Positions 29,297 to 31,493 of a stretch of DNA of 32,200 nucleotides are shown in pieces. The notes under the pieces are model-generated. The model was not told the origin of the DNA and did not search any database. It saw only the letters and a list, made by a program, of their open reading frames with translations. The stretch spans positions 1 to 32,200 of the forward strand of contig JAPOXB010000076.1 in assembly GCA_026707335.1 (NCBI GenBank), written 5' to 3'. Source of the DNA: Chloroflexota bacterium (lineage in GTDB: Bacteria; Chloroflexota; Dehalococcoidia; Bin125). Every line of letters begins with the position of its first letter. Within the stretch, counting starts at the first letter, position 1. A program made the position numbers and the translations under genes.

Positions 29297-30190
29297 CTAG
29301 CGCAGGGGCAGGCCCAACTGCTGCACGGGAGGCGTCACGGCACGGGGCAGAACGGGCCGATCCGGGACGCCGGCGGCCTCCTTCAACTCCTGCACGCGCG
29401 CGGCGACGCGGTCGCGGTAGCGCTTGGGGGCGTACTTCTCACCGTAGAGCCGGCGGTAGCCGTCGAGGAGGGCCGGGTACTCCGCCGCCAGGAAGCCGAA
29501 GTAGTAGTCGCGCAGCTCGGGGCTCAGGTTGAGCAGGCCCGATCCGACGAAGCGCGCGCCGTGATCGGCGGAGGCGCGCACCGTCCGCTCGACCTGCGCC
29601 CGGTCGGCGGACAACCCGGGCAGCAGCGGGGCCATCAGCACGCCGGCGCTGATGCCCGCGTCGACGAGGCGGCGCATCGCCGCGAGGCGCTGCCGGGGCG
29701 GCGCCGTGCCCGGCTCCGTGCGGCGCCAAATCTCCCGATCGACCGTCGGGACGCTGAAGGCGACGCTGAGCCCCGCGCGGGTCTCGACCTCCCGCAGCAC
29801 GTCGAGGTCGCGCACGATGAGCGGATTCTTGGTGAGCAGCGAGACGGGGCTGCGAAAGCGGGCGAACTGCTCGATCGCCGCCCGCGTCAGGCGGTAGCGA
29901 CCCTCGGCGGGCTGGTAGGGGTCGGTCGCGGTGCCCAGCGCGACCTGCTCCCGCCGCCAGCCGGGGCGCGACAACTCCCCGGCCAGCACCGCGGCCAAGT
30001 TCCGCTTGACGTAGATGATGCCCGTGAAGTCGTCGCCGATGCCCAACTCGAAGAAGCGATGAGTGGGACGCGCAAAGCAGTAGTGGCAGGCGTGCGCGCA
30101 GCCCCGGTACGGGTTGAGCGACCAGGCGAAGGGCATCCCCCGCACCCGGTTGAGCGCCGACTTGCACTCGATCTCGCGGTACTCGACCAC
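29297..30190 (-). CDS. Radical SAM protein, Rv2578c/SplB-like family
   Basis: ALNRVRGMPFAWSLNPYRGCAHACHYCFARPTHRFFELGIGDDF (CxxxCxxC), VALGTATDPYQPAEGRYRLTRAAIEQFARFRSPVSLLTKNPLIVRDLDVL; GTG start at 30190. Confidence 0.9.
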   Translation of the reverse strand: MVEYREIECKSALNRVRGMPFAWSLNPYRGCAHACHYCFARPTHRFFELGIGDDFTGIIYVKRNLAAVLAGELSRPGWRREQVALGTATDPYQPAEGRYRLTRAAIEQFARFRSPVSLLTKNPLIVRDLDVLREVETRAGLSVAFSVPTVDREIWRRTEPGTAPPRQRLAAMRRLVDAGISAGVLMAPLLPGLSADRAQVERTVRASADHGARFVGSGLLNLSPELRDYYFGFLAAEYPALLDGYRRLYGEKYAPKRYRDRVAARVQELKEAAGVPDRPVLPRAVTPPVQQLGLPLR

Positions 30191-30217
30191 GCCATCCGCC
30201 CTTCCCGCCCGGACAAG

Positions 30218-30246
30218 AGTAGAACACGTGTGCTACCTGTTGTCAA
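30218..30246 (-). promoter_or_regulatory. Sigma70-type promoter TTGACA-N17-TCTACT with LexA-like palindrome in spacer/-10, upstream of the radical SAM gene
   Basis: Reverse strand reads TTGACA ACAGGTAGCACACGTGT TCTACT; palindrome TAGAACACGTGTGCTA at 30220-30235 (7 of 8 arm positions pair). Confidence 0.55.
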
Positions 30247-30257
30247 GGGCGCGGCCG

Positions 30258-31493
30258 CTAGCGCAGCGTGCCGGCGGCCTCGCCGGCGGCGACCTCCTCG
30301 GCGGACGTGCCCAGCCAGTCGGCGAGCACGGCGGCGGTGTCCGCCCCGGTCAGGCGCGAGGCGGCGTAGGTCTCGACCGGCGTCGCCGAGAAGCGCAGCG
30401 GCAGCCGATCGATCTGCTGCGCGCCGATCGTGGCGTGTTCCTCGTCGGCGGTGGTGAAGAAGCCGGTCGCGGCCAACTGTGGGTCGCGCTGCGTGAGGTC
30501 GACGCCCGACTGCACCACGCCCGCCGGCACGCCGGCCGCCTGGCAGCGCTCCATGACGGCCTCCGCGTCCTGCGTGCTGGTCCAGGCCGCCATCTCGCGA
30601 TCGATCGCCTCCATCGCCGCCACGCGGCCCGCCGCGCTATCAAGGGCGGGGTCGCGGGCCCAGGCTGGCTCGCCCAGCAGCGCGCGCAGGGCCCGCCACT
30701 GGCCGTCGCTCATGACGGCGATCGCGACCCAGCGCTCCTCCTCGCCGGGGACCGCGCCGGCCAGCGGCCGGCACGGATAGCAGCCGTGCGGGGCGGCGGC
30801 GTCGTAGGGCAGACGGTTGCCGGTGGCCTCCGCCCGGCCCCCGTTGACGGCCAGGTCGAGCAGGGTGGGACCCAGGAAGTTGACGCCCGTCTCGAACTGC
30901 GCGACCTCGATCCGCTGGCCGCGCCCGTCGCGGCGGCGCGCCTCGAGCGCGGCCAGCACCGCCAGCGCCGCGTGCAGCCCGGCGGCGTGGTCGTTGTAGG
31001 AGAAGCCGATGCCGATGTCGTCGCGGCCGGGCACGCCGGTCAGGGCGGTCAGGCCCGAGAGCGCATGGATCGTGGGGGCGTAGGTGACGTAACCGGACCA
31101 GGGACCGCCGGGGCCCATGCCCGACATGCCGACGGCGATCAGGCCGGGATTGGCCGCGCGCAGCACGGACTCGCCCAGCCCCCAGCGATCGAGCACGCCC
31201 GGCGAGAAGTTGTCGATCAGCACATCGGCGCGGGTCGCGAGGTCCAGCGCGATGCGCCGCGCCTCGTCCGTCGCCATGTCGAGCGCCAGCGCGCGCTTGT
31301 TGCGGTTCCACATGGCGAAGTAGGGCTGCGCCGGGTCGGACCCCACGCCCTGGGAGCGGCCGGCCGTGGACACCTTGACCACGTCGGCGCCCAGATCGCC
31401 GAGGACGCGCGTCCCGAAGGGCCCCGCGAGCACGTGCGTGAAGTCGAGCACGCGCACGCCGTCGAGGGGGCGGGGGCCGCTACGCGAGTCCAT
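30258..31493 (-). CDS. CoA transferase family III (CaiB/BaiF)
   Basis: LDGVRVLDFTHVLAGPFGTRVLGDLGADVVKV, NRNKRALALDMATDEARRIALDLATRADVLIDNFSPGVLDRWGLG, GMGPGGPWSGYVTYAPTIHALSGL; ATG at 31493 overlaps the upstream gene by 14 nt. Confidence 0.93.
   Translation of the reverse strand: MDSRSGPRPLDGVRVLDFTHVLAGPFGTRVLGDLGADVVKVSTAGRSQGVGSDPAQPYFAMWNRNKRALALDMATDEARRIALDLATRADVLIDNFSPGVLDRWGLGESVLRAANPGLIAVGMSGMGPGGPWSGYVTYAPTIHALSGLTALTGVPGRDDIGIGFSYNDHAAGLHAALAVLAALEARRRDGRGQRIEVAQFETGVNFLGPTLLDLAVNGGRAEATGNRLPYDAAAPHGCYPCRPLAGAVPGEEERWVAIAVMSDGQWRALRALLGEPAWARDPALDSAAGRVAAMEAIDREMAAWTSTQDAEAVMERCQAAGVPAGVVQSGVDLTQRDPQLAATGFFTTADEEHATIGAQQIDRLPLRFSATPVETYAASRLTGADTAAVLADWLGTSAEEVAAGEAAGTLR

Follow-up and report, generated by a model that had tools for sequence, protein, structure and literature searches.

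GAAC-N4-GTTC is the LexA motif of Gram-positive bacteria (PMC3323433), and direct-repeat LexA motifs are known in alpha-Proteobacteria and Balneolaeota (PMC3323433, PMC7739468). LexA control of splB has been predicted in alpha- and beta-Proteobacteria (PMC3323433), in Bacteroidetes (PMC8565304), and in Gram-positives and Balneolaeota (PMC7739468). The SOS core reported for Gram-positives also counts a radical SAM protein among its members (PMC7739468), and in Streptomyces venezuelae the radical SAM gene vnz_31145 is tabulated in the LexA regulon (PMC9380542). Gram-positives, Proteobacteria and Bacteroidetes have known SOS-controlled radical SAM (‘SplB’) genes, to which the predicted Chloroflexota case presented here is added; by description, the SOS-regulated splB/COG1533 genes share with it a radical SAM gene (SplB-like in several papers) under LexA, in lineages with differing LexA motifs. 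A literature search on LexA binding and SOS in Chloroflexi matched only PMC3323433, whose single mention of Chloroflexi concerns multi-chromosome genomes, and found no report of an SOS-controlled radical SAM gene in Chloroflexota.

We analysed a 32,200-nucleotide stretch of Chloroflexota DNA (the window), contig C178 of source assembly G000 (2.64 Mb, 265 contigs, 87% complete). Positions 30220–30246 very probably hold a housekeeping-type promoter whose −10 element is overlaid by a GAAC-N4-GTTC-class LexA operator, which would make the gene behind it an SOS-switched radical SAM gene; LexA binding, induction by damage and a role in DNA repair are inferred. The features of the locus are as follows.

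29297..30190, minus strand: radical SAM protein of 297 aa with a GTG start and CX3CX2C at C31/C35/C38, Rv2578c/PA0069-like, with an SPL fold (from profiles, alignment and predicted structure).
30218..30223, minus strand: −10 element TCTACT, sharing bases with the operator's right half (from the sequence and 40 aligned ortholog promoters).
30222..30233, unstranded: predicted LexA (SOS) box core, GAACACGTGTGC on the plus strand and GCACACGTGTTC on the minus strand, within an extended palindrome at 30220–30235.
30241..30246, minus strand: −35 element TTGACA (consensus), in the sole TTGACA-N16..18-TNTANT match of the window.

The promoter occupies the gap between a CoA-transferase gene, whose stop is at 30258, and the radical SAM gene, whose GTG is at 30190, and on the minus strand it reads 5'-TTGACA (30246–30241) ACAGGTAGCACACGTGT TCTACT (30223–30218)-3', with a spacer of exactly 17 nt and 27 nt between the −10 element and the GTG. 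Over the spacer and the −10 element stands a 16-bp palindrome, TAGMACACGTGTKCTA (30235–30220), in which one of the eight base pairs is mismatched (TAGCACACGTGTTCTA on the coding, minus, strand and TAGAACACGTGTGCTA on the plus strand); its centre, ACACGTGT, is a perfect palindrome by itself. Both the promoter and the imperfect palindrome had been named in a preliminary description of this DNA and were found where it placed them, and its remark that consensus −35 boxes are scarce holds as well, with TTGACA occurring only twice in the whole window.

TTGACA-N16..18-TNTANT was found once in the window and not at all in 100 shuffles. The site was not returned by a simple promoter scan, because its second hexamer, TCTACT, lacks an A in position 2. 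The core GAACACGTGTGC matches GAAC-N4-GTTC in 7/8 core bases, with GCAC/GTGC as the deviant half-site. Allowing up to three mismatches, TAGAACACGTGTTCTA occurs once in the window and never in 100 shuffles, the 16-mer itself having been taken from the site. For a GAAC-N4-GTKC core, the count in the window does not exceed chance (one found, 1.47 expected), so sequence alone could not settle what the site means. The LexA-operator case is therefore carried by relatives of the locus and not by window statistics.

The preliminary description had left its reading dependent on the SOS genes of the same genome, and their motif proved not to be unrelated. Pattern matches in the assembly place two boxes, GAACGCATGTGC and GAACGCGTGTTC, about 30 bp apart at recA (Pfam RecA, 418 bits), and GAACATGCGTTC 21 bp ahead of the ATG of a DinB-type polymerase gene. 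Across the class, an exact GAAC-N4-GTTC was present in the lexA promoter at 13 of 18 LexA loci; the lexA promoter of the same-genus genome G001 carries GAACGTCTGTTC (locus plus strand), and two more lexA promoters carry GTGC half-site variants (G016, GAACTGATGTGC; G013, GAACATTGGTGC). The recA promoters of the family have one or two boxes each, and the GCAC/GTGC half-site of the window recurs at recA in G000, G001, G002, G004 and G006–G012. Because this variant is common at the family's recA genes, the window box, GCACACGTGTTC on the coding strand, falls within the family's range. Being off GAAC-N4-GTTC in one half-site, it could be bound weakly by LexA.

Core, spacing, presence at lexA, recA and dinB, and overlap with the promoter are all shared with the Gram-positive SOS box of B. 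subtilis and M. tuberculosis. What differs is the lineage, Chloroflexota, and the GTGC half-site, which in this family is frequent at recA and also occurs at the radical SAM gene. Of the earlier label, a Gram-positive or actinobacterial type of SOS box, the first half is borne out by the motif at recA, dinB and lexA; ‘actinobacterial’ does not suit a lineage whose nearest named orthologs come from Chloroflexota MAGs, one of them (L082) nearly identical to G003 in the protein tree.

The same-genus genome G001 encodes a LexA with an Ala-Gly pair, which we take to be its cleavage site, and with Ser/Lys residues that presumably have their usual roles. A search of the 87%-complete own assembly with the family model and the G001 LexA as queries did not find lexA, most simply because the assembly is incomplete. 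The sole LexA-like sequence there (L001, G000 C210:9763–9954) has a LexA-like N-terminal DNA-binding domain and no peptidase match. In this lineage a pair of SOS boxes ~30 bp, or about three helical turns, apart is frequent in recA promoters (L221 at 1163 and 1193; also L219, L218 and L216).

Boxes of this kind also occur at other genes of the assembly. An exact SOS box, GAACGTTTGTTC, lies upstream of a RelA/SpoT-domain gene (L047:2064; G000 C232:5563–5574), and a same-genus relative of this gene (52%; L204:2165) is likewise boxed upstream, with GAACATGTGTTC on the locus plus strand; the two boxes suggest that an alarmone-type enzyme may be under damage control. On contig C86, two SOS-box-like sites 29 bp apart (L044, at 493 and 522) are flanked by a minus-strand gene and by a Crp-family regulator at 823.

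Conservation in orthologous promoters, the other point on which the preliminary reading hung, extends through the genus, family and class to other phyla, and the palindrome is more perfect there than in the window. An exact GAAC-N4-GTTC stands at the same place in G001 (same genus, 84% identity), G003 (same family, about 65–66%) and G015 (same class, 52%), where the coding-strand boxes read GAACATGTGTTC (84%), GAACATCTGTTC (65%) and GAACAAATGTTC (52%), respectively; the G016 ortholog (52%) has GCACGGATGTGC within TTGACG...TAGGTT. No box was found over the promoter of distant paralogs (29–41% identity). Within about 170 bp upstream, the exact box was present in 32/80 named orthologs versus 7/1,941 control windows of equal length from the same loci, and a box with one mismatch in 43 of 80 versus 121/1,941. 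The record titles of the MAGs with an exact box label them as Chloroflexota, Actinomycetota, Armatimonadota, Eremiobacterota, Bacillota and Deltaproteobacteria.

When 40 ortholog promoters were aligned on the box, GAAC and GTTC were near invariant and the centre variable; as these promoters had been picked by their GAAC/GTTC core, the variable centre alone is independent evidence. Downstream of the box the same alignment shows T-A-T and, at +17, T, corresponding to a −10 element fused to the GTTC half-site, as in the window. Boxed rows are clustered on the protein tree, where they require 7 changes and shuffled states 16.1 on average; nine rows, the window included, were scored as boxed on a one-mismatch or near match. 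A close ortholog is absent from most genomes of genera g4 and g5 of the family (G004–G012), which have kept only the 29–41% paralogs; the radical SAM gene is thus not an obligatory SOS gene, and its distribution indicates that it was lost or gained within the family. Among the genes downstream of the orthologs no conserved partner was found, and with neighbours that are not conserved the box is assigned to the radical SAM gene.

These comparisons bear on two other accounts of the palindrome. It could have arisen by chance, or be what is left of a LexA box that has decayed and lost its function, with the gene expressed constitutively from its near-consensus promoter; the 1.47 core matches expected by chance and the imperfect GTGC half-site would fit. 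We consider this very unlikely, as the position over the −10 element is that of the perfect boxes of all near orthologs, and the same imperfect half-site is kept in the family's recA promoters and in another radical SAM promoter (L096, GCACGTTTGTTC). A chance origin of the box is rejected on the ortholog counts (32/80 versus 7/1,941), not on window statistics. Control by another dimeric repressor, with an operator of the ACACGTGT type, would accord with the many repressors that bind short palindromes and with the perfect symmetry of the centre itself, yet this centre varies over the 40 orthologs while GAAC/GTTC, by which the set was chosen, is near invariant, and the same motif stands ahead of recA, dinB and lexA, all of which makes such a repressor extremely improbable. 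The predicted LexA-operator reading of the palindrome is strongly supported; what was observed in its favour is the site with its architecture, the conservation of that site and the presence of the motif at recA, dinB and lexA too.

What the gene encodes calls for a similar weighing. Its product scores 51.6 bits against Pfam Radical_SAM (PF04055; gathering score 29.5) and has CX3CX2C at C31, C35 and C38, which places it in the superfamily. The profile of the Rv2578c family (NF038135) is its top NCBIfam match, at 306.8 bits over 272 residues, although the protein stays under the curated cut-off of 430 bits and is ~38 N-terminal profile positions short; the PA0069 family profile gives 229 bits versus a cut-off of 360. 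In a high-confidence AlphaFold2 model (pLDDT 95), each of the top six PDB fold matches is a spore photoproduct lyase (TM 0.67–0.69), at 17% identity. In spore photoproduct lyase, C140/C141 is the fourth, hydrogen-donating cysteine. The only invariant cysteines across 57 orthologs of the window protein are the three cluster ligands of CX3CX2C, and no fourth conserved cysteine that could be a hydrogen-donor candidate was found among them. The protein is thus modelled with a DNA-lesion-lyase (SPL) fold but does not retain the catalytic set known from SPL. The term ‘SplB-like’, used in the preliminary description, is apt for the fold and not for family membership, given the missed profile cut-offs.

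A true spore photoproduct lyase, reversing the UV-made lesion 5-thyminyl-5,6-dihydrothymine, would agree with these fold matches and with a weak match of the sequence profile that takes in the EPGT motif, and DNA repair would be compatible with SOS control. We regard this identity as very unlikely, since the score against TIGR04070 (spore photoproduct lyase) is 19.3 bits versus a cut-off of 400, a cysteine like C140/C141 is not conserved in the 57 orthologs and, to our knowledge, spore formation is not expected in the Chloroflexota lineage of the window. Radical chemistry on damaged nucleic acid is the probable activity of the radical SAM protein, possibly in the repair or processing of DNA.

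Under the LexA-operator reading, and by analogy with known LexA biology, a LexA dimer on the palindrome over the −10 element would block RNA polymerase sterically in undamaged cells. After DNA damage, RecA on single-stranded DNA would bring about self-cleavage of LexA and so release the repression, and the radical SAM gene would then come on together with recA and dinB, as a stand-alone SOS target. The role of the enzyme on damaged DNA is the less certain part of this scheme.

Orthologs from Acidobacteriota (L085–L142), whose rows form one clade of the protein tree, do not have the palindrome. A direct repeat, GCGAACAAAANGCGAA, stands near their own, more upstream, start in 18 of 26 of them versus 0/644 control windows, counts that are descriptive because the pattern was built after both promoter sets had been viewed; several of the remaining orthologs carry apparent one-base variants. 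The same element occurs, mostly in reverse orientation, in Acidobacteriota lexA promoters (L164–L175, L186), in 7 of 10 by regex and in one further lexA locus. With a stricter pattern, 19 places were found in ten acidobacterial genomes and none with the reversed control, and these places include the radical SAM gene, lexA and a RecA-like gene resembling imuA. As the control counts are zero, chance is unlikely, and the direct repeat is predicted to be the probable LexA operator of Acidobacteriota, with GCGAACAAAAGGCGAA as a candidate operator sequence. The element also lies directly upstream of HlyD-type efflux adaptor genes in two Acidobacteriota genomes (L196, L202).

As a broader and more tentative proposal, doubtful at present, this radical SAM subfamily may belong to the SOS core as a stand-alone effector, undoing a DNA lesion in growing cells through a chemistry unlike that of spore photoproduct lyase. 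Its LexA control would then have persisted in Chloroflexota, Actinomycetota, Armatimonadota and others, and in Acidobacteriota would have outlasted the replacement of the GAAC-N4-GTTC palindrome by the direct repeat GCGAACAAAANGCGAA as operator. With this locus, predicted LexA control of SplB-type radical SAM genes reaches into Chloroflexota, a poorly studied phylum that thereby gains a working SOS box in which GTGC is tolerated as a half-site. Conservation of the predicted control over several phyla marks an uncharacterised enzyme as a likely DNA-damage protein.
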